Shown here piece by piece: positions 1,802 through 60,084 of a DNA stretch of 64,000 bases. The translations under genes and the position numbers were made by a program. The stretch is from Pseudeuparius sepicola (Eukaryota; Arthropoda; Insecta; Coleoptera; Anthribidae): contig OY987298.1 in assembly GCA_963920635.1 (NCBI GenBank), positions 3,100,001 to 3,164,000 of the forward strand, read 5' to 3'. The notes under the pieces were generated by a model that was given only the letters and a program-made list of their open reading frames with translations, was not told where the DNA came from and searched no databases. Numbering within the stretch: position 1 is the stretch's first letter; each line of letters opens with the position of its first letter.

Positions 1802-1837
1802 TTTGTAACTAACTGTATATTGACAGTAATTATACTT

Positions 1838-2761: not shown

Positions 2762-2789
2762 GTTGGCTACTAATAAAGATACCGAGTCA

Positions 2790-3695: not shown

Positions 3696-3712
3696 GTAGG
3701 TGGGGAATAAAA

Positions 3713-3749
3713 CACTGACAATTATACTTAATTTTATCTTTATTATATA
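3713..3749 (-). promoter_or_regulatory. Core promoter of the zinc finger-ATPase gene
   Basis: Reading the minus strand, TATATAAT (3749-3742) is followed 33 bases later by TCAGTG (3718-3713), a match to the arthropod initiator. The ATG comes about 20 bases after. The same layout appears before the genes at 4590 and 7322. Confidence 0.6.
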
Positions 3750-16644: not shown

Positions 16645-16647
16645 ATT

Positions 16648-16665
16648 TGGTGTCAGAAGTGGGAT
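16648..16665 (+). promoter_or_regulatory. tRNA primer-binding site
   Basis: TGGTGTCAGAAGTGGGAT begins 3 bases after the LTR with the expected TGG (complement of tRNA CCA). The sequence resembles the 3' end of a leucine tRNA, but that assignment is from memory and uncertain. Confidence 0.8.
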
Positions 16666-16672
16666 CCTCGAT

Positions 16673-16811
16673 AAAAGGGTCTTCAACGAGGGAGATCCGG
16701 AGGCACTTAGAAGGACAGTCTCCTCGGGGGTCACCACACCACTACGATTGGAGCCAGCTGAAAAGGGTCTTCGACAGGAAGATCCGGAGGCACTAAGAAG
16801 GACAGTCTCCT
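16673..16811 (+). repeat. Two direct repeats in the untranslated leader
   Basis: Blocks of about 52 bp at 16673-16724 and 16761-16811 share AAAAGGGTCTTC, GATCCGGAGGCACT and AAGGACAGTCTCCT. They lie between the primer site and gag, where packaging or dimerisation signals are expected. Confidence 0.75.
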
Positions 16812-16859
16812 GAGGCCAGCATCCAGCAACAACAGCAGCATCAACGACATCCAGCGAGC

Positions 16860-16876
16860 ATGAAGTTACTTCTATT
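16860..16876 (+). CDS. env: First coding exon of spliced env (start of signal peptide)
   Basis: An ATG at 16860-16862 opens five Lys/Leu-type codons and two further bases, then a consensus GTAAGT donor at 16877. Joined in phase to the acceptor at 22184-22185, the frame enters env and completes a hydrophobic signal-peptide-like segment. Env of errantiviruses is known to be made from spliced RNA. The junction is predicted, not observed. Confidence 0.7.
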
Positions 16877-16984
16877 GTAAGTGAAAAACTTGAAGTGAAT
16901 TTTATTTGTGATTTTTTTTTGAACTTTCTACGTTGCTATTATTGAACTTTCTACGTTATAACGATATTACCTTTTCATTTCAAC

Positions 16985-20094: not shown

Positions 20095-20222
20095 ACGAAC
20101 CATCTACTTCCCATGATAATCCTCAAGACATTGACCCGCCTATTGACAATAATGAGACTGACGAAATTGCTATAATCTGTAATGAATTTGACAGATTTTT
20201 TGATCTATACAAGACGACTTCA

Positions 20223-22166
20223 ATGATCGACTATTCTAAAATCCAATATACAAATAATCAACTTTTAGACAAAACACACAAGGACATTGTACTAATTTTT
20301 CAACAAGACAAATTAACAGACCTTCACGAAAAAGTTATTGATGATTTACTTGAGCTAAATCCTGATTTTAACTATAATAAAGCAAATGTTCTTTCCAGTC
20401 AAACCGTAGCTAAAAGAAAATATTATATAATTCCTGTTCCTTTTAATTTTGAAACCGCAATACAAGTACTCTTCATATCTCTTTATTACAGTAAAGATAT
20501 ATTCGAAGAAAATAAAACTTATTACATTGAAAACAATCCAGATTTTCCAATTTTAGAAATGTTTAATTTTTTGTTCTCAGATAAAAATTTCCAACTAACA
20601 ATTTGTCAGAACATTGTGACTATACCAGACGAAGACCAAATACCTATAATAATAGATCAATTTCATTCAGGCAAGACAAACTTACATCGAGGAATAAACG
20701 AAACAATTAGACGCATCAAACAAAAATATAATTGGACAGGACTAACTAAAGACGTTGAAACATTTATTCGGCAGTGCGAAATCTGCCAAAAGACAAAAAT
20801 TTGTAGACAAAACTTGGACAGTCCCTTAGTTATTACCGAAACTCCTAAAACTCCTTTCGAAAGAATAAATATTGACATCCTAGAAATCCCAGTAAAAAAT
20901 AATATCCTTACCATAAGAGACGAACTAACAAAATTTACCCAAGCTTATGCACTTCCTAATAAAACAGCGAGATCTGTAGTAGACGCTCTTTTACTCTATT
21001 TTCAACATTTTGGAACTCCTTTAAGAATCCATTGCGATGTAGGTAAAGAATTTAATAATCAATTAATGAAAGATCTTTGTAAATTATACAATATAAAATT
21101 AACTTTCTCTAGTGTTAGTCATCCGCAATCAAATGGCTCCTTAGAAAGATTTCATGCCACCTTAACTGAAATGATACGCGCATGTAGTACAGAAAATCCT
21201 AACGAACACCCATTTCAAATGCTCCCTTACGCTTGTATAGCATATAACAATTCTATAAATAAAACACACGGCTTTACTCCTTACGAATTGCTATTTGGTC
21301 ACACCTCGTCTCGACCTCCAGAAGTTTTGTATAATCAGCAAGAATTAATCTCTAAGTACGTTCGCGATTTAAACAATAAAATAAAGCATTATTATGAAGT
21401 GGCAAGAAAGCGTACGGATATGCGCAAACAAAAGGCGAAACAGCGATTTGATACACACGTTTCGGAGCAGCGACAATTTCGCGTAGGAGAAAAGGTTTAT
21501 GTCAAGGAGTCCCAAATAAAAAATAAACTAGCTAACAAATTTAATGGACCCTATAAAATTAAAGAAATTTATACGAATTCAGCTTTGCTACATAACCCAA
21601 TTACTAACCAAACTACAAAAATGAATTTTGATATGCTAAAGAAATGTCACGAATTACAGGAAGAAGAACTAACGGTTAAAGAATTCTTTTATACTCTAGA
21701 TCGAAAAATCCCTATTGAAAATAATAACGTTTCCATTGAACTGGGCAATTTATTTGATGCCCCTGAAAATATTTCATTAGCTCACTGTGTATCTAAAGAT
21801 TTAAAAATGAATGCAGGAATTGCAAAAGAATTTAAGAATAAATTTGGATATGTAGATGAACTAAAAAATCAAAATAAGTCAATTGGTGAAATAGCAGTAC
21901 TTCAACTTCCGACAAGAAATATTTATTATTTAATAAGTAAAGAATTTTTCTATTATAAACCAACTTATGCTAATTTATTTAATTGCTTAAAGGAATTACG
22001 AACAATTTGTCTCGAGAGCACTGATGAAAAAGATAAAATTATAGCTATACCCAAGTTAGCTTGTGGATTAGACAAATTAGATTGGGACACAGTTCTCCCT
22101 ATGATCAAATATATTTTCAAAAATACTGATATTAAAATAATTTGTTATATCGAACCAAGTTCCTAA
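20223..22166 (+). CDS. pol: Pol part 2: integrase with C-terminal TARG1/OARD1-like macro domain
   Basis: A 647-codon frame, open upstream to about 20061, so the Met at 20223 is probably not a real start; it would be reached by a -1 shift from the RT frame. The order is: N-terminal zinc-binding module (HSGKTNLHRG, then CEICQKTK, about residues 145-195); DDE core D218, D272, E308 (D,D-35-E); and a GPY/F-type module near 435-460 (NKFNGPYKIKEIY). From about 503 to 645 is a macro domain: ELGNLFDAPENISLAHCVS, NAGIAKEFKNKFG, IYYLISKE, KPTYANL and ACGLDKLDW. Lys573 and Asp617 align with the catalytic Lys84 and Asp125 of human TARG1, an ADP-ribose glycohydrolase. The last bases overlap the env region in another frame. 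Confidence 0.88.
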   Translation: MIDYSKIQYTNNQLLDKTHKDIVLIFQQDKLTDLHEKVIDDLLELNPDFNYNKANVLSSQTVAKRKYYIIPVPFNFETAIQVLFISLYYSKDIFEENKTYYIENNPDFPILEMFNFLFSDKNFQLTICQNIVTIPDEDQIPIIIDQFHSGKTNLHRGINETIRRIKQKYNWTGLTKDVETFIRQCEICQKTKICRQNLDSPLVITETPKTPFERINIDILEIPVKNNILTIRDELTKFTQAYALPNKTARSVVDALLLYFQHFGTPLRIHCDVGKEFNNQLMKDLCKLYNIKLTFSSVSHPQSNGSLERFHATLTEMIRACSTENPNEHPFQMLPYACIAYNNSINKTHGFTPYELLFGHTSSRPPEVLYNQQELISKYVRDLNNKIKHYYEVARKRTDMRKQKAKQRFDTHVSEQRQFRVGEKVYVKESQIKNKLANKFNGPYKIKEIYTNSALLHNPITNQTTKMNFDMLKKCHELQEEELTVKEFFYTLDRKIPIENNNVSIELGNLFDAPENISLAHCVSKDLKMNAGIAKEFKNKFGYVDELKNQNKSIGEIAVLQLPTRNIYYLISKEFFYYKPTYANLFNCLKELRTICLESTDEKDKIIAIPKLACGLDKLDWDTVLPMIKYIFKNTDIKIICYIEPSS

Positions 22167-22185
22167 TTCTGAAACTTCGTTACAG

Positions 22186-24058
22186 ATTTTCTTTGTTCGC
22201 TACCGCTATGGCACAATATACACTGCGACCAATTAATAACACCATAGGCGTGTTCTATCAAGAGCAATCCGGACTCAAAATTTCTAATGACAAGTGGAGT
22301 TTATTGGTGTATAAAGACATTTCATCTCTAAAAACAACATTCGAAAATAATAATAAAATTTTAGAAAATATGCAATTTATAATTCAACCAAAAGACGTAC
22401 GAATGGCCGCCTTTCTAAGCGAAGTTAAGTCACATCTCACTTTACTAAATCAACTTTCCGAAAACATTGCGCTCAAATTTGAAGAATTAGCTATTGATGT
22501 AAGAAGATATAAAAGAGGTTTAATTAATGGTTTAGGGTCAGTTTGGAAATTTATTACCGGAAATTTAGACGCTTCAGACGGACAGTATTATAACGATTGT
22601 ATCGACAAAATTAACAGAGACGAACACGAATTAGAAAAATTAATGAAAAAACAAATTTTAGTAACTACTTCAGTTATCAAAAATTTTAACGACTCTATCA
22701 ACAAATTACAAATTGATGAAATTACTTTTAATAATGACATAAAACAAATCGAAAATTACATTTATAACATTTCTGATAATTTTAATTATTACACTGCAAA
22801 ATTACAAGTTTTAGAGATGGCCGAAAGACTCCTAGAATCCTATACCTTTATCGAAAGCAATTTAAATGACATTCTAAACTCTATTACTTTTGCAAAGTTA
22901 CATATCATTCACACGTCAGTTATAACTCCTGAAGACCTGGTTCATCATTTGCAAATAATCGCTCAAACTTTAAACAAAAATAATTTACCCTTAACTCCTC
23001 AACTTCTAAATGTTGCAACTTATCTTGATTTTATAGAACTAAAAGTTTTTCAAACAGAAAATAGGCTTGTTTTTATATTAGATATTCCTTTAGTAGAACC
23101 TCAATGGTATACCCTTTATAGAATTTATCCTATTCCAATTTTCGACAATAAAACTGGATTTTATCACATGGTATCCACTGATACTAAATTTGTAGCAAAA
23201 AGCGATGACCCAACTCTCTATGTAATTCTCTATGATATAAAAAATTGTAAAGAACTAGCATTTGATTTAATAATGTGCAAAGATTTATATCCTACTCCTA
23301 TTGACTCACATTCAAGATGTGAAGCTCAATTATTAGAGGTAAAAACCCATTTACCTAATACTTGTGACATAGTCACAATTTCAATTGAAAGTTACAATGT
23401 ACAATTGATTCAAGAGAATCAATGGTTAATAATTTTAAGTGAAATATTTCCTATAACTATTAAGTGCAAAAATCAAAATCCTTTGACTATAATGCTAGAC
23501 AAAACTTCAATTTTAACGTTAAAATCTGAATGCATTGCTTATATTGGAAGTACTAAAATTCAAACGAAAAATTTAAATAAATCTAATCAAACCTATAAAT
23601 TTCACCCAATTAATATACCATTTGAATGTTGCAAAGAAACTCCAAATAAACTAAAATATCCTGACTTAAAACCTTTACAACTAAATAAATTTAATTATGA
23701 CGATTTAAATGTCGCAAAGCATAAATTAGACGAATATGCAAAGGATCTTGATAATATTATTAACGAACCAACTGTAAATAAGTATACGCCAATATTGACA
23801 TATCTATCCATTGCTTTAATCATACTTTTAATTATTGTGTACTTTTATTTTAAATGTAAAAAGTCTAGGAACATTAAAATAGGCATTATTACTACTAATA
23901 ACGGAGACGATCCTCCACAACCTCCTAGAACTCGAAATCACGTTTTTCAAAATTTAAGAAAATTTGTTACTGTCAAAAGAAGACCTTCGTATAGATTGGA
24001 CGAACCTCGCGAAGAAGAAGAAATTGAACTAAATTCTAATACTAAAACATATGCCTAA
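22186..24058 (+). CDS. env: Envelope fusion protein (baculovirus F-like), main exon
   Basis: The class I fusion-type Env of errantiviruses. The exon starts after a TTACAG acceptor (22180-22185); the unspliced frame is open from an ATG at 22142. A furin-type RRYKR lies at codons 22502-22516 and is followed at once by a fusion-peptide-like GLINGLGSVWKFITGNLD. Long helical regions follow, then a Cys-rich receptor-side segment, one membrane anchor (about 23790-23855, LSIALIILLIIVYFYF), and a cytoplasmic tail of about 65 residues with acidic DEPREEEEIEL. No stops or frameshifts are seen. Env would be infection-competent in structure only if the spliced signal peptide is used. Confidence 0.9.
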
Positions 24059-24095
24059 TTTAATGTCAAAATTTGTTAACACAAATTTTTAATAT

Positions 24096-24106
24096 AAGGG
24101 GGAAGG
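24096..24106 (+). promoter_or_regulatory. Polypurine tract
   Basis: AAGGGGGAAGG directly abuts the 3' LTR and would prime plus-strand DNA synthesis. Confidence 0.9.
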
Positions 24107-24519
24107 TGTTATATCCGACCTCAAGCATCACCTTGATCATAACCTTGTTTTTACCCTTGATTCTGTTTACTGTTGGATATTATGTTCTCATTCTCTATTG
24201 TTCAAGATGCTTACTACAAAGATATCATTTTCCATTGTATATTGTTCTAGAATGATTACTAGAACATATCATATTCCTTTTGAGTATTGTTAAAACTTGC
24301 TTACTGCAAGAATTGCAGAATTTGATCTTCCCTTTGTCTTTATATTCTTTTCCCATGAGAACCACAACACCTCAGCATAACAGATCTGTATAAATAGGAC
24401 CTAGTAAAGTAAGAGTGTTAATTCTAGTCTTGTCTGTAGTCTAAGCCGAAACTCTGTAACTCGCGTTACTCGAATAAAAGTTTTTTAAAAAAGTCTTCGT
24501 CTTCACGTCGCCCGTAACA
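24107..24519 (+). repeat. 3' LTR
   Basis: 413 bp, TG...CA, and on line-by-line reading identical to the 5' LTR at 16232-16644. AATAAA is at 24473-24478. Confidence 0.95.
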
Positions 24520-42020: not shown

Positions 42021-42603
42021 TCTAAAAAAACATAAGTTTGGTCTATATCTTCATTTGTTTCTCTGTAGAATGTTATGTGAATATCCCTGTAGGTACTTAG
42101 TAGGAGAGACCAAAGATTCTGTGCTACTAGGTATGCTTAAATTATACAGAGAATTGAAAGGTTTCACTACAGTAAAGCAACTTTCAGTGGTTTCACGCAA
42201 TTATGCATTTTGGAACTCTGCCGAATGTATTTCCACATAAACAATAGCCGCAAATTCAGCTTTTACGTTCTCAGCTTGTAGTTTATTATTCTGCCAAGCA
42301 AGCAACTCCGAATAATTAATTAAATATTATTCTAACTAACCAAATAAGCATTCTAGACGGGCACTTGTATTATTCTTTTGAAGGGGCAACTAGCAAAGGT
42401 CATCTGCGGGGTTATTTTTTATTTTAATTTTAACGGTGCTCTACGGCGCGAGAGGAATAATTAAAGCTTGCCTGGGAAACTTAAATTTTAAATATTCCGC
42501 GCTTTATTATAACAGTCTAGCGATAAACTGATAAATATGCTTAAGGATGGTGTTATTACAACTCAAATATTGGCGTAGTAAATTTGTAATTTATAAAAAT
42601 TTA
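42021..42603. other. Spacer before the retrozyme array
   Basis: No gene or repeat is recognised. Confidence 0.35.
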
Positions 42604-45600
42604 AAAGAAAAGGTGATAATGGGCAAACACTCAAAGTTAACAAAAAGGAAAAACTAGTAACCGCATACACGTGTTTCATGCTATTTGGCAATCATCAGTA
42701 CGGTGTAACATTAACCAAATCAAAAGATAGGCAAGATTTGGGAAGCAACAAATGAAGTCCAGGCAGGAGCCAACAGCACATTTGCAGCTTCAGTCAGCAC
42801 ATCGCCACGGAGGCTGCTAAAGCGACCTGCGTGGAAATCTTCATAACCCAAGATACCATGACAATAAGGATGTAAGATTAGCGAGTGTAAATGTAACAAT
42901 TACAAGAAAAGGTGATAATGGGCAAACACTCAAAGTTAACAAAAAGGAAAAACTAGTAACCGCATACACGTGTTTCATGCTATTTGGCAATCATCAGTAC
43001 GGTGTAACATTAACCAAATCAAAAGATAGGCAAGATTTGGGAAGCAACAAATGAAGTCCAGGCAGGAGCCAACAGCACATTTGCAGCTTCAGTCAGCACA
43101 TCGCCACGGAGGCTGCTAAAGCGACCTGCGTGGAAATCTTCATAACCCAAGATACCATGACAATAAGGATGTAAGATTAGCGAGTGTAAATGTAACAATT
43201 ACAAGAAAAGGTGATAATGGGCAAACACTCAAAGTTAACAAAAAGGAAAAACTAGTAACCGCATACACGTGTTTCATGCTATTTGGCAATCATCAGTACG
43301 GTGTAACATTAACCAAATCAAAAGATAGGCAAGATTTGGGAAGCAACAAATGAAGTCCAGGCAGGAGCCAACAGCACATTTGCAGCTTCAGTCAGCACAT
43401 CGCCACGGAGGCTGCTAAAGCGACCTGCGTGGAAATCTTCATAACCCAAGATACCATGACAATAAGGATGTAAGATTAGCGAGTGTAAATGTAACAATTA
43501 CAAGAAAAGGTGATAATGGGCAAACACTCAAAGTTAACAAAAAGGAAAAACTAGTAACCGCATACACGTGTTTCATGCTATTTGGCAATCATCAGTACGG
43601 TGTAACATTAACCAAATCAAAAGATAGGCAAGATTTGGGAAGCAACAAATGAAGTCCAGGCAGGAGCCAACAGCACATTTGCAGCTTCAGTCAGCACATC
43701 GCCACGGAGGCTGCTAAAGCGACCTGCGTGGAAATCTTCATAACCCAAGATACCATGACAATAAGGATGTAAGATTAGCGAGTGTAAATGTAACAATTAC
43801 AAGAAAAGGTGATAATGGGCAAACACTCAAAGTTAACAAAAAGGAAAAACTAGTAACCGCATACACGTGTTTCATGCTATTTGGCAATCATCAGTACGGT
43901 GTAACATTAACCAAATCAAAAGATAGGCAAGATTTGGGAAGCAACAAATGAAGTCCAGGCAGGAGCCAACAGCACATTTGCAGCTTCAGTCAGCACATCG
44001 CCACGGAGGCTGCTAAAGCGACCTGCGTGGAAATCTTCATAACCCAAGATACCATGACAATAAGGATGTAAGATTAGCGAGTGTAAATGTAACAATTACA
44101 AGAAAAGGTGATAATGGGCAAACACTCAAAGTTAACAAAAAGGAAAAACTAGTAACCGCATACACGTGTTTCATGCTATTTGGCAATCATCAGTACGGTG
44201 TAACATTAACCAAATCAAAAGATAGGCAAGATTTGGGAAGCAACAAATGAAGTCCAGGCAGGAGCCAACAGCACATTTGCAGCTTCAGTCAGCACATCGC
44301 CACGGAGGCTGCTAAAGCGACCTGCGTGGAAATCTTCATAACCCAAGATACCATGACAATAAGGATGTAAGATTAGCGAGTGTAAATGTAACAATTACAA
44401 GAAAAGGTGATAATGGGCAAACACTCAAAGTTAACAAAAAGGAAAAACTAGTAACCGCATACACGTGTTTCATGCTATTTGGCAATCATCAGTACGGTGT
44501 AACATTAACCAAATCAAAAGATAGGCAAGATTTGGGAAGCAACAAATGAAGTCCAGGCAGGAGCCAACAGCACATTTGCAGCTTCAGTCAGCACATCGCC
44601 ACGGAGGCTGCTAAAGCGACCTGCGTGGAAATCTTCATAACCCAAGATACCATGACAATAAGGATGTAAGATTAGCGAGTGTAAATGTAACAATTACAAG
44701 AAAAGGTGATAATGGGCAAACACTCAAAGTTAACAAAAAGGAAAAACTAGTAACCGCATACACGTGTTTCATGCTATTTGGCAATCATCAGTACGGTGTA
44801 ACATTAACCAAATCAAAAGATAGGCAAGATTTGGGAAGCAACAAGTGAAGTCCAGGCAGGAGCCAACAGCACATTTGCAGCTTCAGTCAGCACATCGCCA
44901 CGGAGGCTGCTAAAGCGACCTGCGTGGAAATCTTCATAACCCAAGATACCATGACAATAAGGATGTAAGATTAGCGAGTGTAAATGTAACAATTACAAGA
45001 AAAGGTGATAATGGGCAAACACTCAAAGTTAATAAAAAGGAAAAACTAGTAACCGCATACACGTGTTTCATGCTATTTGGCAATCATCAGTACGGTGTAA
45101 CATTAACCAAATCAAAAGATAGGCAAGATTTGGGAAGCAACAAATGAAGTCCAGGCAGGAGCCAACAGCACATTTGCAGCTTCAGTCAGCACATCGCCAC
45201 GGAGGCTGCTAAAGCGACCTGCGTGGAAATCTTCATAACCCAAGATACCATGACAATAAGGATGTAAGATTAGCGAGTGTAAATGTAACAATTACAAGAA
45301 AAGGTGATAATGGGCAAACACTCAAAGTTAACAAAAAGGAAAAACTAGTAACCGCATACACGTGTTTCATGCTATTTGGCAATCATCAGTACGGTGTAAC
45401 ATTAACCAAATCAAAAGATAGGCAAGATTTGGGAAGCAACAAATGAAGTCCAGGCAGGAGCCAACAGCACATTTGCAGCTTCAGTCAGCACATCGCCACG
45501 GAGGCTGCTAAAGCGACCTGCGTGGAAATCTTCATAACCCAAGATACCATGACAATAAGGATGTAAGATTAGCGAGTGTAAATGTAACAATTACAAGAAA

Positions 45601-46301
45601 AGGTGATAATGGGCAAACACTCAAAGTTAACAAAAAGGAAAAACTAGTAACCGCATACACGTGTTTCATGCTATTTGGCAATCATCAGTACGGTGTAACA
45701 TTAACCAAATCAAAAGATAGGCAAGATTTGGGAAGCAACAAATGAAGTCCAGGCAGGAGCCAACAGCACATTTGCAGCTTCAGTCAGCACATCGCCACGG
45801 AGGCTGCTAAAGCGACCTGCGTGGAAATCTTCATAACCCAAGATACCATGACAATAAGGATGTAAGATTAGCGAGTGTAAATGTAACAATTACAAGAAAA
45901 GGTGATAATGGGCAAACACTCAAAGTTAACAAAAAGGAAAAACTAGTAACCGCATACACGTGTTTCATGCTATTTGGCAATCATCAGTACGGTGTAACAT
46001 TAACCAAATCAAAAGATAGGCAAGATTTGGGAAGCAACAAATGAAGTCCAGGCAGGAGCCAACAGCACATTTGCAGCTTCAGTCAGCACATCGCCACGGA
46101 GGCTGCTAAAGCGACCTGCGTGGAAATCTTCATAACCCAAGATACCATGACAATAAGGATGTAAGATTAGCGAGTGTAAATGTAACAATTACAAGAAAAG
46201 GTGATAATGGGCAAACACTCAAAGTTAACAAAAAGAGAAAACTAGTAACCGCATACACGTGTTTCATGCTATTTGGCAATCATCAGTACGGTGTAACATT
46301 A
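42604..46301 (-). repeat. Retrozyme-like tandem array, 299-bp unit, 12.4 copies
   Basis: The period is exactly 299 bp from 42604 to 46301, and 12 x 299 separates the first and last copies of the same motif. Units are nearly identical; the few changes include AAATGAAG to AAGTGAAG near 44845, GTTAACAA to GTTAATAA near 45030 and AAAAGGAAA to AAAAGAGAA near 46235. Each unit contains, on the minus strand, a hammerhead ribozyme. Transcription of this strand would give multimers cleavable into 299-nt units. There is no protein-coding capacity. Size, tandem layout and ribozyme type fit animal retrozymes. Confidence 0.88.
42659..42704 (-). ncRNA. Type I hammerhead ribozyme (first of 13 copies, every 299 bp)
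   Basis: Read on the minus strand, stem I 5' strand ACCGTA is followed by the core CTGATGA (42698-42692). Stem-loop II is TTGC-CAAATA-GCAT, then the core GAAA (42677-42674), a minimal stem III CA-CG-TG closed by A-T, and the cleavage base A at 42666. Stem I 3' strand TGCGGT pairs with ACCGTA (6 bp including one G-U). Cleavage would fall between 42666 and 42665. The CAAATA loop and tiny stem III match the newt/schistosome/Penelope hammerheads. The usual G-C next to the core in stem II is U-U here. Copies start at 42659 + 299n, n = 0-12. Confidence 0.85.
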
Positions 46302-46491
46302 TAGTACAGGGAAATTAGCCAATTATTATTAGTAAAGATTTCTTAAAACAATATATAAAGCTAAAAATTGGTAAACGGGTAGCTTTTAGTATAGCAATTC
46401 ATAATTTGTGGTGTTGCAGAGTGTGCCGGGTGGTGCGGATGCGGGACAGGTGGAAAGAAGAGTGCACGCGGTGCGGCTGTTCAGTCGGTTT
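46302..46491. other. Flank of the retrozyme array
   Basis: No gene is seen. The boundary reads ATTATAGTACAGGGAAATT; its complement partly resembles the flank of the solo copy (AATTACCCTGCACTATTAA near 49625). Confidence 0.35.
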
Positions 46492-46722
46492 CTATAGACA
46501 TGTTAAAGATAAGTTGCATCTAATTTTCGAAGAGCGCGGAACATCATCACCATCTAATCTATCACAGGTCAGCTGTCCCAGAAGATCATCAATAAATATT
46601 GAGAACAACAATGGCCCAAGATTTAAACCTTGTGCCACACATGCTTCTTTATGCGTTTCGTTTTTAATCGCAAGCTTCTCCAAGTACTTGGGGATGTAAA
46701 AAATTACATTGCTCTTAACCAT
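46492..46722 (-). pseudogene. Non-LTR retrotransposon (LINE) reverse transcriptase fragment
   Basis: The 76-codon minus frame contains ACVAQGLNLGPLLFSIFIDD, a decayed form of the 'VPQGSVLGPLLFLIYINDL' block of Jockey/CR1-type RTs, followed by LDGDDVP where ADD is expected. Nothing more of the element is recognisable. The overlapping plus-strand frame is its antisense shadow. Confidence 0.65.
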
Positions 46723-48070
46723 GCAGTTACAGGTTAGAATACAACTTCTTCACTTTTCAATATAAAGGCAATAAACAAGCTTTTATATACTTTTACAATC
46801 GAACGAAATACTAAGGCAATATGTTTCTGCATTCAATGATAGAAATGCAACTAAAGAAGATATTGATCTCAAACCGCAGAGTATTTTCTAAAATTATTAT
46901 ATATCAGTCGCGTTTCTGCAGATGACTTAAAGAAAACTAGATTTAACTGTTATAAAAAGGTTATAGCTAAACAAGCAGTTTTTGGAAAGTTTGATCTCTC
47001 GGTACTACCACCAACATCTGGAGTAGCAAAACAGCACAGCTACAGAGTTTTTCATCAAGTTCAGTCTTGGCGTGTTTTAGAGCTGCCTGCTACTGATTGG
47101 GGATGGAAGAAAAAATAGGTACACTTGACCCTCTGGCAGGGGCGGATTTAGGCATGGTCATTATGGGCTGCAGCCCATGGCCCTTTTTATACAAGGGGCC
47201 TCGCCAGCCCCGGCCCAACCTCTTTGAAAATTAAAAAAAAAACAATCAAATCACTCAAAAAATAAAAATAAGTTAGGCTTTAAAATTGTCAAAATGTGCC
47301 CCAAAACACCTGTTGACTCCAACATTCGAAACATAAAATTTTCACCCACTTACCGCTTTCAAATGTTGCACATTAGTTTTCTTGAAATAGGGCGTCCAAA
47401 TTTTGTCGAGTTTCAATCCGTTCTATTTTTAAAGTGAACATTATTTGGGACATTGTTCATATGGGTTTTTTTTCACTGTAAATGGTAAGTCGTTGTGTAA
47501 TATTTGAAAGCAGTAGAATTTTTTTTTTGAATATTGAAGTCAACAGGTGTTTGGGGACACGTTTTGGCAATTTCAATGCAAACGGTTGATTTGATCGCTA
47601 TGAGACAAGAGTACCTTTTGTCGCAGAATGAAAAGATACACTAAAATGATGGACTTGTAGGACCAAAAAGATAACCTCAAAAAAGTTACGAGTAAACGCA
47701 CGATAAAAAAACAGCACAAGTGGCGCCCTCAGTGAGATACCTAGAAATTTACACTTTCAGCTTATTCTCCATCCCCAAAAACAGAGCAGTGCCAAATTTC
47801 GGTTCAGCAGCTTGATTATTTTGCGAGATATAGCCAAAATGCAATTTCAAAAAACAAACCTGTGTTTATTAAGGGAACAATATTTCTATAAAGCATAAAA
47901 TATGAATATTTTGGCCAAAAATATTTGCAGTTTCTCTGTGTCCCATTATTAATGACTCTCCCTGCATATGCTTGAGAAACGCTTCGCTTGAATCAACTGA
48001 TCTTTCGTTTTGGTGAAGTGTGAAATCTTAGAGGGGATAGATTGATTATTTATTTTATTTTTAGAATATA
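46723..48070. other. Repeat debris with a possible hAT end
   Basis: CAGGGGCGGATTTAGGC at 47137, followed by a GC-rich hairpin GGGCTGCAGCCC, resembles the left end of common insect hAT elements. No matching right end or 8-bp duplication was found. No gene is convincing. Confidence 0.35.
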
Positions 48071-48740
48071 CAGGGTGATTTTCTTAGGACTACCACCGCG
48101 ATTTTCTCGCTTATTTTGCGCCCTACAAAAAAACGTAAGAAAAAAAATGTGGCAACTTTGGACAGCTAAGTGGTGCTGCAAAAGAAATCGGCATCCATAT
48201 CAACTTGTCGCGCAATATAAAAAAAACTCAAATTGGGCAAAACAATTAATAGCCGTAGCATGTTTATTTTAAGAAATAGAGGAAAACTTTCATATTGGAC
48301 ATTGATGGCACTAATCTTAGATAGTTTCAGAAAATTACACAGGTTCTTCGGCTCTCTTGAGTCTATGAATTTTTTTGTTTATTTCTTATTAAGCGATTTC
48401 CTCGCTTAATTTCGGGCGCGCATAAAATACGTAAGAAACGAAAATGTGACAATTTTGTAAGCCAGGTGACGATAAAAAATAAATGGGCCTCCATCCCCAA
48501 TTTTTCGCGCTATGCTCATATTCACCCTGTGTAACTTTTCCTAGGACTCTTAAAATAAACATTCCACGGCTATTAATAGTTTTGCTTAATTTGTTTTTTT
48601 TTATATTGCTCGACAAGTTGGCCTTGAATGCCTATTTCTTTTTCAGAACCACTTAGCCACATTTTTGTTACTTACGATTTTTTTGTAGGGCGCAAAATAA
48701 GCGAGAAAATCGCGGTGGTATTCCTAAAAAAATCATCCTG
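48071..48740. mobile_element. Mariner-type foldback CAGGGTGATTTTCTTAGG
   Basis: The left arm (from 48071) and right arm (to 48740, CTAAAAAAATCATCCTG) pair over roughly 200 bp with gaps, including CACCGCGATTTTCTCGC. TA flanks at 48069-48070 and 48741-48742. A third, inverted, decayed copy of the arm lies inside at about 48395-48540. Confidence 0.75.
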
Positions 48741-49054
48741 TATATTATATATTCCATATTTTTATATAATTCTATATATTCTTTATTTTATTTATGTTTA
48801 CATATAGGTAGGTACTTAATTCTCTAAATGAAAATTTGTTATTTTGTTATTTGCTATTTTGTTTCGTATTTACTACTTTTTAATTTAATTAATATAATAT
48901 ATTTTATTTAGGTCCGATATTTATTTACAAAATGATTTTCCATATACTTAATTTAATTTATACATTTTTTAAAGAAGAAAAAGCACGTTTTTGACAAACG
49001 AAACAAACGGGGGCCCCATAATAGTGTAAACTGTAAAATTGACTGTGTCCAAAG
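48741..49054. other. AT-rich spacer
   Basis: No gene is seen up to about 48990. GGGGGCCCC at 49009 may be an element end. Confidence 0.3.
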
Positions 49055-49237
49055 ATGAGATTGTCGCCGAGGGGTACTTCCATGTATCGCGATGTGTGGG
49101 AAATGCAGCAGAGGAGGAAGAACATGCTAGTTGAGGAGGAAGAACAGTCAGAGATCTATAAATCCTCCTTAGACGCCTTAGACGAGGATTATAATACTCA
49201 ACCCAACGAACCTGGACCCTCCCGATTAGCCAACTAA
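49055..49237 (+). CDS. Short coding-like frame, unknown
   Basis: Sixty codons from an ATG at 49055 (an alternative ATG gives SMYRDVWEMQ) to TAA at 49235-49237. The composition is unlike chance AT-rich frames: MYRDVWEMQQRRKNMLVEEE, then YKSSLDALDEDYNTQPNEPG. It looks like a small acidic helical protein or a last exon; TGTCCAAAG just before the ATG could be a weak splice acceptor. No family is recognised, and no polyadenylation signal is close by. Confidence 0.35.
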   Translation: MRLSPRGTSMYRDVWEMQQRRKNMLVEEEEQSEIYKSSLDALDEDYNTQPNEPGPSRLAN

Positions 49238-49634
49238 ACTGTACGAAGTATCGGTTTTTAAGATATGAAAATTATATTAAATCTTATAGAAAATTAATTT
49301 AGAAATTAAATATGCAGATATGCGATTGGAAGATTTCAAGCAGTTCAACGTAGTTTTCATTTATTCCAGGTTAAATTTGGGTTCTTTCCTAGCATTCTTG
49401 GCACATTTTTGATAATTCTATCAATGGGTTTGTGAGTTACTTTTAAAACAAAAAATGTTGGCGGAACTATTTTTTTTTTCTTATAACTTCCAAGATGGCG
49501 GTCATTGGCGGCTGTCCACCAACACGTACAAGCTGCAAGGCTATAAAATTTTATTTACTTACCCATAAGGTATCTTCAAACAAATTTTTAGCTTTATATT
49601 TTGTTTTTAGTTTGAATATGCCAATTACCCTGCA
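49238..49634. other. AT-rich spacer
   Basis: No gene or repeat is recognised. Confidence 0.35.
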
Positions 49635-49852
49635 CTATTAACCAAATCAAAAGATAGGCATGATTTGGGAAGCAACAAATGAAGTCCAGGCAGGAGCCAA
49701 CAGCACATTTGCTGGACTTCATTTGTTGCTTCCCAAATCATGCCTATCTTTTGATTTAGTTAATGTTACACCGTACTGATGATTGCCAAATAGCATGAAA
49801 CACGTGTATGCGGTTACTAGTTTTTTCTTACTAATCTTACATCCTTATTGTC
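49635..49852. repeat. Solo, head-to-head rearranged retrozyme copy
   Basis: The stretch 49637-49709 matches part of the 299-bp unit in array orientation. From about 49710 the sequence turns round and runs 49711-49852 in the opposite orientation, giving a 50-bp inverted repeat around GAAGTCCA/TGGACTTC. The inverted part includes a complete hammerhead at 49770-49815 on the plus strand. A GATTTG/CATGATTTG difference shows it is a distinct variant. Confidence 0.8.
49770..49815 (+). ncRNA. Hammerhead ribozyme, plus-strand copy
   Basis: ACCGTA, CTGATGA (49776-49782), stem-loop II to 49796, GAAA (49797-49800), CACGTG (49801-49806), T-A (49807-49808), then TGCGGT pairing back with ACCGTA. Cleavage is predicted between 49808 and 49809. 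All core bases match the array copies. Confidence 0.8.
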
Positions 49853-51046
49853 ATTATAAAAATTTAGGCAAGCAAATTTGGAGGCCGCCTTAGCCGTACA
49901 CGCGCCTGCTAAATCATCCTATGTACAGGGTAATCCAAACTGGATTAATATATTGTTATGTGTATTTTTCTTATTTTCAAATTTTTCTTATCCTTGTGGT
50001 TTACAAATTATTTATATTTTAATGTGGAGATTTTTTTACTTTCATGCTCAAAATTCGAACACCCTCTATGAGAGATAAGGTATTCATTCATTCCTTTATT
50101 ATTCTTAACCAACTTTCCAGTTCATTATAGAGACTGTAATAAAGAAATTATAATTAAAAAATAAACTAATGAAATTAAATTAAATTACTTAATAAAAATC
50201 TTTTAAATTTATTAATTTGATAATATTCGATATCAATTAATTGGTAATTTGGCAATATTCGATATCAATTTTAAGGACTTTGGTAAGTTATTATTCAGGG
50301 TGGCCCATTTGAAATTGAAGCACCCCCGTAAAATTTTTATTTTTCTATTGTCTATTGACTTTAATCGTTTTTTCTAAAGATAGGTCAGGTCACAAAAACC
50401 TCTACTTTAGTGCCAAATTTCAGGTCTTAATCCCAATTTTCAAGGCCTACTATGAATTTTTTTCTATGACGAAAACCAAAAAAAACTAACAATACTGATA
50501 TTGGATAACTGTTTGCATGGCTAGTATTCCCTCTTTTCAATATTGGTGATAATTTCATTTTTTTTGGAAATATACGAGTTCTAAATGACAAACTAAGAGC
50601 TTTAAAATTGGTACTATTAACTGACCTGAAAAAATAATTACCTACCTACTTACAAGTAATATAAAATCTAACTCTACAAAAATCTATTGTTAAAAAAGGG
50701 ACTAGGAGAGCATTTTACCTAGTAGTAAAATATTGTTGACAGCCCTTAGATTTATTGTCATATTGAAAAGAAAACATTGAAGATAAATAAATAATATTAT
50801 TTTTGTTGGCTACAGTTTGAAATGCAAAAAACTATCACTGTTTAATTATATTTATTGTTATTGATGGTTGTACAATAACTTGTGCACCATAGGGATTAGT
50901 AAAAAAACTCACAAAAAATATGCCATTCCAATATTCCATGACCAGTGACAATTTTCAAACCACGATGGTTTTAAAAAAGTTCAGACTATTTTCTAAAAAC
51001 CGGCTGGGCCGTCAAGTTTGCATCACCTTATAGAATAAAAACAGAA
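49853..51046. other. Spacer with one element end
   Basis: CAGGGTGGCCCATTTGAAA at 50297 looks like a mariner-type left end without an evident partner. No gene is convincing; the rest is AT-rich. Confidence 0.35.
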
Positions 51047-54000
51047 AAAATATTTCTAACCCAAGCTTAGGTATAACGAATTGTCAATTTTTTGTTGTTT
51101 TTTTTTCTGTAGAGAGTTCTAAGATTGGTATTTTGATTTTTGCAAATTAGATATTCATTTGATATTAATAACAGGTTCGATTTGTCTTTGCATTAGATAC
51201 AATGTTACTAAGTTGGCACAAATAATGTGAAGAATTTAACCCCACACCTGAGACCAGTAACGCTATTATAATTAGCTGCATGTTTTATCAAAATGATAAA
51301 GTTTGTTTCAGGTTTTGTTTCAGACTCAGTTTCGTCATATACCATATATAAGTATCATATTTAAAAATGACATTGATAAATAAATTAAAACTTAATATTT
51401 TTCAAAATGGCACGATAAAATATTTCTAACCCAAGCTTAGGTATAACGAATTGTCAATTTTTTGTTGTTTTTTTTTTCTGCAGAGAGTTCTAAGATTGGT
51501 ATTTTGATTTTTGCAAATTAGATATTCATTTGATATTAATAACAGGTTCGATTTGTCTTTGCATTAGATACAATGTTACTAAGTTGGCACAAATAATGTG
51601 AAGAATTTAACCCCACACCTGAGACCAGTAACGCTATTATAATTAGCTGCATGTTTTATCAAAATGATAAAGTTTGTTTCAGGTTTTGTTTCAGACTCAG
51701 TTTCGTCATATACCATATATAAGTATCATATTTAAAAATGACATTGATAAATAAATTAAAACTTAATATTTTTCAAAATGGCACGATAAAATATTTCTAA
51801 CCCAAGCTTAGGTATAACGAATTGTCAATTTTTTGTTGTTTTTTTTTTCTGCAGAGAGTTCTAAGATTGGTATTTTGATTTTTGCAAATTAGATATTCAT
51901 TTGATATTAATAACAGGTTCGATTTGTCTTTGCATTAGATACAATGTTACTAAGTTGGCACAAATAATGTGAAGAATTTAACCCCACACCTGAGACCAGT
52001 AACGCTATTATAATTAGCTGCATGTTTTATCAAAATGATAAAGTTTGTTTCAGGTTTTGTTTCAGACTCAGTTTCGTCATATACCATATATAAGTATCAT
52101 ATTTAAAAATGACATTGATAAATAAATTAAAACTTAATATTTTTCAAAATGGCACGATAAAATATTTCTAACCCAAGCTTAGGTATAACGAATTGTCAAT
52201 TTTTTGTTGTTTTTTTTTTCTGCAGAGAGTTCTAAGATTGGTATTTTGATTTTTGCAAATTAGATATTCATTTGATATTAATAACAGGTTCGATTTGTCT
52301 TTGCATTAGATACAATGTTACTAAGTTGGCACAAATAATGTGAAGAATTTAACCCCACACCTGAGACCAGTAACGCTATTATAATTAGCTGCATGTTTTA
52401 TCAAAATGATAAAGTTTGTTTCAGGTTTTGTTTCAGACTCAGTTTCGTCATATACCATATATAAGTATCATATTTAAAAATGACATTGATAAATAAATTA
52501 AAACTTAATATTTTTCAAAATGGCACGATAAAATATTTCTAACCCAAGCTTAGGTATAACGAATTGTCAATTTTTTGTTGTTTTTTTTTTCTGCAGAGAG
52601 TTCTAAGATTGGTATTTTGATTTTTGCAAATTAGATATTCATTTGATATTAATAACAGGTTCGATTTGTCTTTGCATTAGATACAATGTTACTAAGTTGG
52701 CACAAATAATGTGAAGAATTTAACCCCACACCTGAGACCAGTAACGCTATTATAATTAGCTGCATGTTTTATCAAAATGATAAAGTTTGTTTCAGGTTTT
52801 GTTTCAGACTCAGTTTCGTCATATACCATATATAAGTATCATATTTAAAAATGACATTGATAAATAAATTAAAACTTAATATTTTTCAAAATGGCACGAT
52901 AAAATATTTCTAACCCAAGCTTAGGTATAACGAATTGTCAATTTTTTGTTGTTTTTTTTTTCTGCAGAGAGTTCTAAGATTGGTATTTTGATTTTTGCAA
53001 ATTAGATATTCATTTGATATTAATAACAGGTTCGATTTGTCTTTGAATTAGATACAATGTTACTAAGTTGGCACAAATAATGTGAAGAATTTAACCCCAC
53101 ACCTGAGACCAGTAACGCTATTATAATTAGCTGCATGTTTTATCAAAATGATAAAGTTTGTTTCAGGTTTTGTTTCAGACTCAGTTTCGTCATATACCAT
53201 ATATAAGTATCATATTTAAAAATGACATTGATAAATAAATTAAAACTTAATATTTTTCAAAATGGCACGATAAAATATTTCTAACCCAAGCTTAGGTATA
53301 ACGAATTGTCAATTTTTTGTTGTTTTTTTTTTCTGCAGAGAGTTCTAAGATTGGTATTTTGATTTTTGCAAATTAGATATTCATTTGATATTAATAACAG
53401 GTTCGATTTGTCTTTGAATTAGATACAATGTTACTAAGTTGGCACAAATAATGTGAAGAATTTAACCCCACACCTGAGACCAGTAACGCTATTATAATTA
53501 GCTGCATGTTTTATCAAAATGATAAAGTTTGTTTCAGGTTTTGTTTCAGACTCAGTTTCGTCATATACCATATATAAGTATCATATTTAAAAATGACATT
53601 GATAAATAAATTAAAACTTAATATTTTTCAAAATGGCACGATAAAATATTTCTAACCCAAGCTTAGGTATAACGAATTGTCAATTTTTTGTTGTTTTTTT
53701 TTCTGTAGAGAGTTCTAAGATTGGTATTTTGATTTTTGCAAATTAGATATTCATTTGATATTAATAACAGGTTCGATTTGTCTTTGCATTAGATACAATG
53801 TTACTAAGTTGGCACAAATAATGTGAAGAATTTAACCCCACACCTGAGACCAGTAACGCTATTATAATTAGCTGCATGTTTTATCAAAATGATAAAGTTT
53901 GTTTCAGGTTTTGTTTCAGACTCAGTTTCGTCATATACCATATATAAGTATCATATTTAAAAATGACATTGATAAATAAATTAAAACTTAATATTTTTCA

Positions 54001-57000
54001 AAATGGCACGATAAAATATTTCTAACCCAAGCTTAGGTATAACGAATTGTCAATTTTTTGTTGTTTTTTTTTTCTGCAGAGAGTTCTAAGATTGGTATTT
54101 TGATTTTTGCAAATTAGATATTCATTTGATATTAATAACAGGTTCGATTTGTCTTTGAATTAGATACAATGTTACTAAGTTGGCACAAATAATGTGAAGA
54201 ATTTAACCCCACACCTGAGACCAGTAACGCTATTATAATTAGCTGCATGTTTTATCAAAATGATAAAGTTTGTTTCAGGTTTTGTTTCAGACTCAGTTTC
54301 GTCATATACCATATATAAGTATCATATTTAAAAATGACATTGATAAATAAATTAAAACTTAATATTTTTCAAAATGGCACGATAAAATATTTCTAACCCA
54401 AGCTTAGGTATAACGAATTGTCAATTTTTTGTTGTTTTTTTTTCTGTAGAGAGTTCTAAGATTGGTATTTTGATTTTTGCAAATTAGATATTCATTTGAT
54501 ATTAATAACAGGTTCGATTTGTCTTTGCATTAGATACAATGTTACTAAGTTGGCACAAATAATGTGAAGAATTTAACCCCACACCTGAGACCAGTAACGC
54601 TATTATAATTAGCTGCATGTTTTATCAAAATGATAAAGTTTGTTTCAGGTTTTGTTTCAGACTCAGTTTCGTCATATACCATATATAAGTATCATATTTA
54701 AAAATGACATTGATAAATAAATTAAAACTTAATATTTTTCAAAATGGCACGATAAAATATTTCTAACCCAAGCTTAGGTATAACGAATTGTCAATTTTTT
54801 GTTGTTTTTTTTTCTGTAGAGAGTTCTAAGATTGGTATTTTGATTTTTGCAAATTAGATATTCATTTGATATTAATAACAGGTTCGATTTGTCTTTGCAT
54901 TAGATACAATGTTACTAAGTTGGCACAAATAATGTGAAGAATTTAACCCCACACCTGAGACCAGTAACGCTATTATAATTAGCTGCATGTTTTATCAAAA
55001 TGATAAAGTTTGTTTCAGGTTTTGTTTCAGACTCAGTTTCGTCATATACCATATATAAGTATCATATTTAAAAATGACATTGATAAATAAATTAAAACTT
55101 AATATTTTTCAAAATGGCACGATAAAATATTTCTAACCCAAGCTTAGGTATAACGAATTGTCAATTTTTTGTTGTTTTTTTTTCTGTAGAGAGTTCTAAG
55201 ATTGGTATTTTGATTTTTGCAAATTAGATATTCATTTGATATTAATAACAGGTTCGATTTGTCTTTGCATTAGATACAATGTTACTAAGTTGGCACAAAT
55301 AATGTGAAGAATTTAACCCCACACCTGAGACCAGTAACGCTATTATAATTAGCTGCATGTTTTATCAAAATGATAAAGTTTGTTTCAGGTTTTGTTTCAG
55401 ACTCAGTTTCGTCATATACCATATATAAGTATCATATTTAAAAATGACATTGATAAATAAATTAAAACTTAATATTTTTCAAAATGGCACGATAAAATAT
55501 TTCTAACCCAAGCTTAGGTATAACGAATTGTCAATTTTTTGTTGTTTTTTTTTTCTGCAGAGAGTTCTAAGATTGGTATTTTGATTTTTGCAAATTAGAT
55601 ATTCATTTGATATTAATAACAGGTTCGATTTGTCTTTGCATTAGATACAATGTTACTAAGTTGGCACAAATAATGTGAAGAATTTAACCCCACACCTGAG
55701 ACCAGTAACGCTATTATAATTAGCTGCATGTTTTATCAAAATGATAAAGTTTGTTTCAGGTTTTGTTTCAGACTCAGTTTCGTCATATACCATATATAAG
55801 TATCATATTTAAAAATGACATTGATAAATAAATTAAAACTTAATATTTTTCAAAATGGCACGATAAAATATTTCTAACCCAAGCTTAGGTATAACGAATT
55901 GTCAATTTTTTGTTGTTTTTTTTTCTGTAGAGAGTTCTAAGATTGGTATTTTGATTTTTGCAAATTAGATATTCATTTGATATTAATAACAGGTTCGATT
56001 TGTCTTTGCATTAGATACAATGTTACTAAGTTGGCACAAATAATGTGAAGAATTTAACCCCACACCTGAGACCAGTAACGCTATTATAATTAGCTGCATG
56101 TTTTATCAAAATGATAAAGTTTGTTTCAGGTTTTGTTTCAGACTCAGTTTCGTCATATACCATATATAAGTATCATATTTAAAAATGACATTGATAAATA
56201 AATTAAAACTTAATATTTTTCAAAATGGCACGATAAAATATTTCTAACCCAAGCTTAGGTATAACGAATTGTCAATTTTTTGTTGTTTTTTTTTTCTGCA
56301 GAGAGTTCTAAGATTGGTATTTTGATTTTTGCAAATTAGATATTCATTTGATATTAATAACAGGTTCGATTTGTCTTTGAATTAGATACAATGTTACTAA
56401 GTTGGCACAAATAATGTGAAGAATTTAACCCCACACCTGAGACCAGTAACGCTATTATAATTAGCTGCATGTTTTATCAAAATGATAAAGTTTGTTTCAG
56501 GTTTTGTTTCAGACTCAGTTTCGTCATATACCATATATAAGTATCATATTTAAAAATGACATTGATAAATAAATTAAAACTTAATATTTTTCAAAATGGC
56601 ACGATAAAATATTTCTAACCCAAGCTTAGGTATAACGAATTGTCAATTTTTTGTTGTTTTTTTTTCTGTAGAGAGTTCTAAGATTGGTATTTTGATTTTT
56701 GCAAATTAGATATTCATTTGATATTAATAACAGGTTCGATTTGTCTTTGAATTAGATACAATGTTACTAAGTTGGCACAAATAATGTGAAGAATTTAACC
56801 CCACACCTGAGACCAGTAACGCTATTATAATTAGCTGCATGTTTTATCAAAATGATAAAGTTTGTTTCAGGTTTTGTTTCAGACTCAGTTTCGTCATATA
56901 CCATATATAAGTATCATATTTAAAAATGACATTGATAAATAAATTAAAACTTAATATTTTTCAAAATGGCACGATAAAATATTTCTAACCCAAGCTTAGG

Positions 57001-59944
57001 TATAACGAATTGTCAATTTTTTGTTGTTTTTTTTTTCTGTAGAGAGTTCTAAGATTGGTATTTTGATTTTTGCAAATTAGATATTCATTTGATATTAATA
57101 ACAGGTTCGATTTGTCTTTGCATTAGATACAATGTTACTAAGTTGGCACAAATAATGTGAAGAATTTAACCCCACACCTGAGACCAGTAACGCTATTATA
57201 ATTAGCTGCATGTTTTATCAAAATGATAAAGTTTGTTTCAGGTTTTGTTTCAGACTCAGTTTCGTCATATACCATATATAAGTATCATATTTAAAAATGA
57301 CATTGATAAATAAATTAAAACTTAATATTTTTCAAAATGGCACGATAAAATATTTCTAACCCAAGCTTAGGTATAACGAATTGTCAATTTTTTGTTGTTT
57401 TTTTTTTCTGTAGAGAGTTCTAAGATTGGTATTTTGATTTTTGCAAATTAGATATTCATTTGATATTAATAACAGGTTCGATTTGTCTTTGCATTAGATA
57501 CAATGTTACTAAGTTGGCACAAATAATGTGAAGAATTTAACCCCACACCTGAGACCAGTAACGCTATTATAATTAGCTGCATGTTTTATCAAAATGATAA
57601 AGTTTGTTTCAGGTTTTGTTTCAGACTCAGTTTCGTCATATACCATATATAAGTATCATATTTAAAAATGACATTGATAAATAAATTAAAACTTAATATT
57701 TTTCAAAATGGCACGATAAAATATTTCTAACCCAAGCTTAGGTATAACGAATTGTCAATTTTTTGTTGTTTTTTTTTCTGTAGAGAGTTCTAAGATTGGT
57801 ATTTTGATTTTTGCAAATTAGATATTCATTTGATATTAATAACAGGTTCGATTTGTCTTTGCATTAGATACAATGTTACTAAGTTGGCACAAATAATGTG
57901 AAGAATTTAACCCCACACCTGAGACCAGTAACGCTATTATAATTAGCTGCATGTTTTATCAAAATGATAAAGTTTGTTTCAGGTTTTGTTTCAGACTCAG
58001 TTTCGTCATATACCATATATAAGTATCATATTTAAAAATGACATTGATAAATAAATTAAAACTTAATATTTTTCAAAATGGCACGATAAAATATTTCTAA
58101 CCCAAGCTTAGGTATAACGAATTGTCAATTTTTTGTTGTTTTTTTTTTCTGTAGAGAGTTCTAAGATTGGTATTTTGATTTTTGCAAATTAGATATTCAT
58201 TTGATATTAATAACAGGTTCGATTTGTCTTTGCATTAGATACAATGTTACTAAGTTGGCACAAATAATGTGAAGAATTTAACCCCACACCTGAGACCAGT
58301 AACGCTATTATAATTAGCTGCATGTTTTATCAAAATGATAAAGTTTGTTTCAGGTTTTGTTTCAGACTCAGTTTCGTCATATACCATATATAAGTATCAT
58401 ATTTAAAAATGACATTGATAAATAAATTAAAACTTAATATTTTTCAAAATGGCACGATAAAATATTTCTAACCCAAGCTTAGGTATAACGAATTGTCAAT
58501 TTTTTGTTGTTTTTTTTTTCTGTAGAGAGTTCTAAGATTGGTATTTTGATTTTTGCAAATTAGATATTCATTTGATATTAATAACAGGTTCGATTTGTCT
58601 TTGCATTAGATACAATGTTACTAAGTTGGCACAAATAATGTGAAGAATTTAACCCCACACCTGAGACCAGTAACGCTATTATAATTAGCTGCATGTTTTA
58701 TCAAAATGATAAAGTTTGTTTCAGGTTTTGTTTCAGACTCAGTTTCGTCATATACCATATATAAGTATCATATTTAAAAATGACATTGATAAATAAATTA
58801 AAACTTAATATTTTTCAAAATGGCACGATAAAATATTTCTAACCCAAGCTTAGGTATAACGAATTGTCAATTTTTTGTTGTTTTTTTTTTCTGTAGAGAG
58901 TTCTAAGATTGGTATTTTGATTTTTGCAAATTAGATATTCATTTGATATTAATAACAGGTTCGATTTGTCTTTGCATTAGATACAATGTTACTAAGTTGG
59001 CACAAATAATGTGAAGAATTTAACCCCACACCTGAGACCAGTAACGCTATTATAATTAGCTGCATGTTTTATCAAAATGATAAAGTTTGTTTCAGGTTTT
59101 GTTTCAGACTCAGTTTCGTCATATACCATATATAAGTATCATATTTAAAAATGACATTGATAAATAAATTAAAACTTAATATTTTTCAAAATGGCACGAT
59201 AAAATATTTCTAACCCAAGCTTAGGTATAACGAATTGTCAATTTTTTGTTGTTTTTTTTTTCTGTAGAGAGTTCTAAGATTGGTATTTTGATTTTTGCAA
59301 ATTAGATATTCATTTGATATTAATAACAGGTTCGATTTGTCTTTGCATTAGATACAATGTTACTAAGTTGGCACAAATAATGTGAAGAATTTAACCCCAC
59401 ACCTGAGACCAGTAACGCTATTATAATTAGCTGCATGTTTTATCAAAATGATAAAGTTTGTTTCAGGTTTTGTTTCAGACTCAGTTTCGTCATATACCAT
59501 ATATAAGTATCATATTATTTAAAAATGACATTGATAAATAAATTAAAACTTAATATTTTTCAAAATGGCACGATAAAATATTTCTAACCCAAGCTTAGGT
59601 ATAACGAATTGTCAATTTTTTGTTGTTTTTTTTTCTGTAGAGAGTTCTAAGATTGGTATTTTGATTTTTGCAAATTAGATATTCATTTGATATTAATAAC
59701 AGGTTCGATTTGTCTTTGCATTAGATACAATGTTACTAAGTTGGCACAAATAATGTGAAGAATTTAACCCCACACCTGAGACCAGTAACGCTATTATAAT
59801 TAGCTGTATGTTTTATCAAAATGATAAAGTTTGTTTCAGGTTTTGTTTCAGACTCAGTTTCGTCATATACCATATATAAGTATCATATTTAAAAATGACA
59901 TTGATAAATAAATTAAAACTTAATATTTTTCAAAATGGCACGAT
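51047..59944 (+). repeat. Satellite array, 370-371-bp unit, 24 copies
   Basis: AACCCAAGCTTAGG recurs every 370-371 bp from 51058 to about 59586, giving 24 near-identical units. Variation is confined to a few sites: a T run of 8-10, CTGCAG versus CTGTAG, TTTGCATTAG versus TTTGAATTAG, one TAT insertion at about 59516 and GCTGTATG in the last unit. Each unit has a perfect small palindrome TTTATCAAAATGATAAA. GGTTCGATTTG resembles a Pol III B box, but no convincing A box pairs with it. No coding sequence. Confidence 0.95.
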
Positions 59945-60084
59945 ATATCTATGTCGTGTGGTTTGTAGTGTGCAAGTGCTGTATGTCTGAATGTGTTGTG
60001 TGCTGTTGGAAAACATAAGTTTTGTGTGTATCCTGAAAAGAAAACAAGAAAAAGTTTTGGGACTACTGGCGTATCTTTAATATA

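Follow-up and report, generated by a model that had tools for sequence, protein, structure and literature searches.

A tandem array of 299-bp hammerhead repeats in the beetle Pseudeuparius sepicola: a probable non-LTR retrozyme inserted as a multimer

How did a block of near-identical repeats, each encoding a hammerhead ribozyme motif, come to stand in a beetle genome: through amplification at the DNA level, like an ordinary satellite, or through an RNA that was copied back into the chromosome? We addressed this question in a 64,000-nt stretch of Pseudeuparius sepicola DNA (contig OY987298.1, positions 3,100,001 to 3,164,000; hereafter the window, with all positions counted from its first letter). 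We favor, with a probability of about 70%, the reading that a non-LTR animal retrozyme, whose non-coding unit measures 299 nt, stands at this locus and that reverse transcription inserted it as a multimer. An earlier note on this DNA had proposed a retrozyme candidate, and the proposal gains support from three sides: the hammerhead itself; a non-coding tandem repeat of retrozyme size; and an insertion that looks retrozyme-like.

The array was delineated with Tandem Repeats Finder, which reports a period of 299 over 42601-46301 (12.4 copies, 99% matches), and by a copy-by-copy comparison, which together place it at 42605..46301 with the minus strand as the one giving the hammerhead RNA. Starting from 42605, it consists of 12 full 299-bp units followed by the first 109 nt of unit 13; hence, the 13 tandem copies that had been counted before are there, as 12 full units and a cut one. 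Across the 12 x 299 bases of units 1-12 there are merely two differences (148A>G in copy 8 and 37C>T in copy 9), and in unit 13 two neighboring bases are changed (44G>A, 45A>G). The unit has a GC content of 41%; the longest stop-to-stop frame listed in the array reaches 77 aa, and a protein search with it returned no homologue. Within the window the unit is matched at the array and at an inverted fold-back described below, and nowhere else. The motif was said to be constant across the copies, and it is, with no differences at unit positions 56-100; however, such constancy is a weak sign of selection because the copies are near-identical over their whole length. By the same token, the 13 hammerhead copies count as one event and not as 13, and the element is known from one locus, i.e., as one independent sequence. 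Exact patterns of the hammerhead and the unit had no matches in viral and prokaryotic contig collections, whose make-up means that the lack of matches elsewhere says little; no literature report of the 299-bp sequence was found, in a body of text where sequences are not searchable.

The hammerhead occupies unit positions 56-100 on the minus strand, the first at 42660..42704, from where it recurs every 299 bp up to the thirteenth, in the cut copy, at 46248..46292. All 13 minus-strand sites match the Rfam model Hammerhead_1 (RF00163) with 26.5 bits over model positions 1-45 of 45, and a fourteenth, inverted motif on the plus strand (49770..49814) gives the same 26.5 bits with no differences in its 45 nt. 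The claim of a type I hammerhead on the minus strand of every unit is thus borne out by a full-length match to the family model at all 13 copies; its 26.5 bits lie under the curated Rfam gathering score of 34 bits for this family, and no Rfam family reaches its gathering score anywhere in the window. The earlier inventory was likewise right about the 13 copies and missed the inverted fourteenth, the element that interrupts the array and the outer flanks. The expectation value of the match is 0.034 for the 64-kb window searched with all 4227 families and 0.00058 when 1.1 kb is searched with all families; dividing 0.034 by 4227 gives about 8e-6 per window for the Hammerhead_1 family alone.

The minus-strand RNA reads as a helix I of six pairs, CUGAUGA, a helix II of three pairs behind a U-U mismatch, closed by the loop CAAAUA, which is the family consensus, and then GAA. 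By hand, helix III is an A-U and a C-G pair under the tetraloop ACGU, whereas the model pairs it further. GUA precedes the predicted cut, which the core of the model would place between unit positions 62 and 61. In the alignment, a single pair is marked as non-standard, namely the U-U with which helix II begins. We also composed a structural descriptor (CUGANGA; helix II with at least three pairs in its first four positions; GAA; helix III with at least two pairs; an NUH cleavage base; helix I with at least five pairs). It finds 13 minus-strand sites and one plus-strand site (49776) in the window and no others, and none in 150 first-order Markov simulations of the window searched on both strands, although it was composed after the motif was known and is hence shaped to it. 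Both the full-length model match and the descriptor recover the core elements CUGANGA, GAAA and NUH with three helices, helix I being open, which is the type I arrangement.

The U-U pair had been regarded as odd and as the possible mark of a new subtype, an idea that does not survive comparison with published hammerheads. Natural hammerheads in which U10.1-U11.1 opens helix II are described in PMC3088659, which also cites this pair as supporting more cleavage than other mispairs; the axolotl HHR_Amex2 combines a U-U mismatch with a two-pair helix III closed by a tetraloop (PMC7229834); and cricket hammerheads, too, are described with changes at the G10.1/C11.1 pair (PMC2837043). A novel subtype is therefore ruled out by the presence of U-U in natural hammerheads (PMC3088659, PMC7229834). 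The monomeric repeat of HHR_Amex2 is reported to be 22% cut in an hour, and its dimer to do much better (PMC7229834). The present motif, with U-U in helix II and a palindromic helix III, adds a case of these two features occurring together, a combination that suggests dimer dependence.

The palindrome in question is ACACGUGU. When two 45-nt motifs are co-folded without constraints, the double hammerhead is the minimum-energy structure at -23.9 kcal/mol, and the same holds for pairs of 55- and 65-nt motifs; at 75, 85 and 105 nt (15, 20 and 30 nt of flank) other folds are returned and no double hammerhead. For five tandem transcripts with lengths of 344-459 nt, the double form is 1.6-5.2 kcal/mol less stable than the minimum-energy fold and 8.6-14.6 kcal/mol more stable than two single hammerheads. 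As 132 of 500 shuffled 45-mers yield a dimer energy as strong, it is the shape and not the energy that supports the dimer. The single hammerhead is poorly represented in both the linear 299-nt monomer and its circle, with pair probabilities of at most 0.07 for helices I and II and 0 for helix III. Taken together, the predicted folds speak against easy monomeric cleavage, as the dimer reading expects. The monomer as a whole is no more stable than its shuffles (z = -0.42, with z -1.69 for the plus strand); published retrozyme circles are described as highly self-paired (PMC7229834).

Beyond the array, its outer edges carry information on how it arrived. A plus-strand word search of the window found the 12-bp word TATAAAAATTTA at the two outer edges only, at 42592..42603 on the left and, as an exact match, at 49855..49866 on the right; its reverse complement occurs once, at 8171. 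The two copies lie directly outside both ends, save one extra A at 42604, and the duplication lengthens to 13 nt once the T at 49854, also part of the unit, is counted in. Among random pairs of junctions drawn from the window outside the arrays, with 4 nt of slack on each side of the edges, 9 of 199,528 share at least 12 nt, as do 43 of 199,137 AT-rich ones. As a control, a neighboring array of 371-bp units has no common word of 6 nt or more at the edges compared (51020-51050 against 59940-59990). Hence, with random junctions rarely matching the duplication and the control lacking one, a staggered cut of the target is likely. Judged by its sequence, the direct repeat around the whole insertion is a target-site duplication. 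Aligned against the array's right flank and against the last right flank, the inverted left flank (42301-42612) did not exceed the top score among 50 shuffles in either case, and the same was true of the last right flank against the inner end of the interrupting element.

This interrupting element, recognized by the break in the array and its alike inverted ends (TAGTRCAGGGWAATTRGCC), spans 3336 bp at 46302..49637, within unit 13. The unit halts at its position 109 (46301) and restarts at position 107 (49638), which is why TTA is doubled, at 46299-46301 and 49638-49640. The ends of the element read TAGTACAGGGAAATTAGCC and, inverted, TAGTGCAGGGTAATTGGC; they stay alike further in (68% over 94 bp), and their end-to-end alignment scores 96 as against at most 79 in 50 shuffles. 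The element thus looks like a transposon that struck the array later. A TTA duplication is a feature of PIF/Harbinger elements; the 4 ORFs scanned, out of 33 listed for this element, include no transposase. Its minus strand has a weak RVT_1 fragment at 46492-46749 (18.7 bits where the cut-off is 29.6; E 0.0015), and it contains nested fold-backs that join 48062-48133 to 48678-48749 and 47277-47337 to 47519-47579. Outside it, GTACAGGGTAAT, within 49910-49935, resembles its end, so that a further member of the same element family may begin or end there.

From the alike inverted ends, the TTA duplication and the restart of the unit it follows that the array continues beyond the element and that 49638-49854 is its tail. 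With this tail the span reaches 49854, making the element larger than the earlier note reported. The tail opens with the continuation of unit 13 (minus strand, 49638..49712), which covers unit positions 107-181 and departs from the unit at one of the 76 bases compared over 49637-49712, by 130A>T. There the sequence turns back: the unit runs inverted, on the plus strand, from position 158 to 41 at 49713..49829 (97.5% over 118 bp) and finally from 277 to 254 at 49831..49854 (24/24 identical). That the inverted copy could be a separate second element is ruled out by the restart of the unit where it had been interrupted. The arm differs from the unit by 44G>A, 112C>T and 130A>T. Two of these, 44G>A and 130A>T, are common to the arm and unit 13 and absent from units 1-12; since the arm shares them with unit 13 alone, it was most simply copied from that unit. 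Conversely, 112C>T is private to the arm and the 45A>G of unit 13 is absent from it, so that, under self-copying of unit 13, both of these differences would have to be later changes. Twin priming of the kind known from L1 is geometrically possible for the tail, with the shared 44G>A and 130A>T making self-copying the simpler account.

The position of the fold-back also bears on polarity, as it occupies the side of the array on which the hammerhead-strand RNA would have its 5' end. If that RNA was the template, the first strand would have run from left to right and the fold-back would therefore lie at the late end of synthesis, although this agreement of polarity would by itself be a one-in-two coincidence. 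As a side observation, the strongest of the miRNA-like matches in the window falls on the fold-back: at E up to 1 there are 20 Rfam matches, 14 to the hammerhead and 6 to miRNA or sRNA families under their gathering scores, and 49645-49756 matches MIR1888 with 63 bits and mir-266 with 44 bits on both strands, again under the gathering scores. This is the resemblance that hairpins arising from inverted duplication have to miRNA precursors.

Set against known systems, the locus fits the animal non-LTR retrozymes in size, GC content, tandem layout, hammerhead type and target-site duplication. These are described in PMC7229834 as non-coding repeats of about 170-400 bp (here 299) that are arranged head to tail and carry type I hammerheads, with GC below 50% (here 41%) and with a target-site duplication, when present, of more than 4 bp (here 12); insects are named among the carriers (PMC7229834, Cervera and de la Pena 2020). 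The comparison is one of descriptions; a particular trait of the present locus is that a whole multimeric insertion, with both target-site copies and the fold-back tail, is readable. Compared in the same manner, the axolotl HHR_Amex2 resembles the present hammerhead in the U-U that opens helix II as well as in the two-pair helix III with a tetraloop, and differs in its length of 353 bp against the 299-bp unit (PMC7229834). Within the insects, the pDo500 satellite of Dolichopoda cave crickets likewise carries a hammerhead, for which single and double forms were proposed and self-cleavage in vitro was reported (PMC2837043). However, its unit is about 500 bp long, and in its double form helix III is described as lying within one molecule, whereas here the palindrome would form helix III between motifs (PMC2837043).

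A sceptical view would take the array for an ordinary satellite, expanded through unequal exchange, or through rolling-circle amplification of DNA that was then re-inserted, with the hammerhead as a dead relic. The motif does score under the Rfam gathering threshold and is not the favored fold; amplification of DNA also yields near-identical copies; and an inverted tail could arise through DNA repair. Yet the core is intact, its irregular U-U pair is known from natural hammerheads, and the differences in units 1-12 are private. Moreover, the end-joining of DNA circles would not normally make a 12-bp direct repeat like the one around the insertion, even if amplification at the DNA level followed by insertion at a staggered cut is compatible with the evidence from the array. 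We therefore hold the satellite account to be unlikely, at something like one chance in a handful.

Two further accounts carry far less weight. The repeats might be a piece of a Penelope-like element, namely a tandem pseudo-LTR with a minimal hammerhead: such elements and Terminons are described as having type I hammerheads in tandem that may self-cleave as dimers (PMC7761336), and Penelope-like elements appear as candidate helpers in PMC7229834 and PMC7761336. In the latter description, however, their hammerheads usually go without helix III, where two pairs and a tetraloop can form here, and belong to autonomous elements. No GIY-YIG domain is present in the ten ORFs scanned, the weak RVT_1 fragment is confined to the later 3.3-kb insertion, and no array frame in the stretch listed exceeds 77 aa; we regard this account as very improbable. 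That the resemblance to a hammerhead is a matter of chance draws on the score under the curated threshold and on there being one independent sequence; with some 8e-6 family matches expected per window, no descriptor sites in the 150 simulated windows and a loop, CAAAUA, that is the consensus of the family, we give it scarcely any credence.

Returning to the retrozyme reading, we advance the following plausible cycle, starting from features that are legible in the sequence itself: the hammerhead motif, its tandem array, the duplication at the flanks, the fold-back and the element that interrupts the last unit. The minus strand would be transcribed as a multimer, in which neighboring hammerheads might pair via their palindromic ACACGUGU and so make a single cut in each unit. 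Circles of 299 nt could then be closed by a host ligase. The reverse transcriptase of another element would copy such a circle, or an uncut multimer, repeatedly at a nicked AT-rich target; PMC7229834 proposes, as a model, that a borrowed reverse transcriptase turns circles into tandem DNA. The whole array would have been inserted in one step, leaving the 12-bp target-site duplication, while the new DNA may have doubled back near its end and used about 140 nt of its own sequence as the template for the inverted tail. Later, the 3.3-kb inverted-repeat element would have entered the last unit at TTA.

The array begins at unit position 1 and not at the predicted cleavage site 61/62; this offset suggests that the template was a circle or an internally primed multimer. 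The private single differences in the near-identical units 1-12 would fit copies of a single template. At its most specific, the proposal is a single insertion of at least 12.6 units, in which the reverse transcriptase circled one 299-nt RNA more than 12 times before the strand snapped back and copied the last unit. We put this forward tentatively, as an attractive possibility on which we would not yet bet. If true, the rolling-circle reverse transcription of a hammerhead circle can be read from this locus, and with it the way in which such satellites are seeded. It is uncommon for one locus to display the whole insertion, both target-site copies, the start and the end of copying and the polarity, and it offers testable marks for the model: (i) a start off the cleavage site; (ii) a duplication around the whole multimer; (iii) a fold-back at the 5' end of the RNA.

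The remainder of the window holds other repeats and mobile-element genes. The second satellite, at 51047-59945, comprises 24 copies of 371-bp units (99%; 27% GC), is unrelated to the 299-bp array and has no Rfam match at E up to 1. Among the six of the ten scanned ORFs that lie outside the 3.3-kb element, compared with Pfam, two had no match, and the others gave a DUF4817 transposase, an integrase core with a weak chromodomain match, a poxvirus A32-like ATPase and a Baculo_F envelope-like protein; we take these transposase, integrase, ATPase and Baculo_F frames to belong to arthropod-type mobile elements. Diaphorina citri is the one organism named among the 120 relatives listed, of 2502, for the DUF4817 transposase. 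The integrase core with its weak chromodomain match, the A32-like ATPase and neighboring frames lie on the minus strand at 476-3749, presumably as a Polinton/Maverick element. Finally, the matching repeat blocks 16301-16416 and 24176-24291 flank long frames, the last of which is Baculo_F (E 2e-39), and the stretch 16301-24291 looks, from this layout, like an envelope-bearing LTR element.
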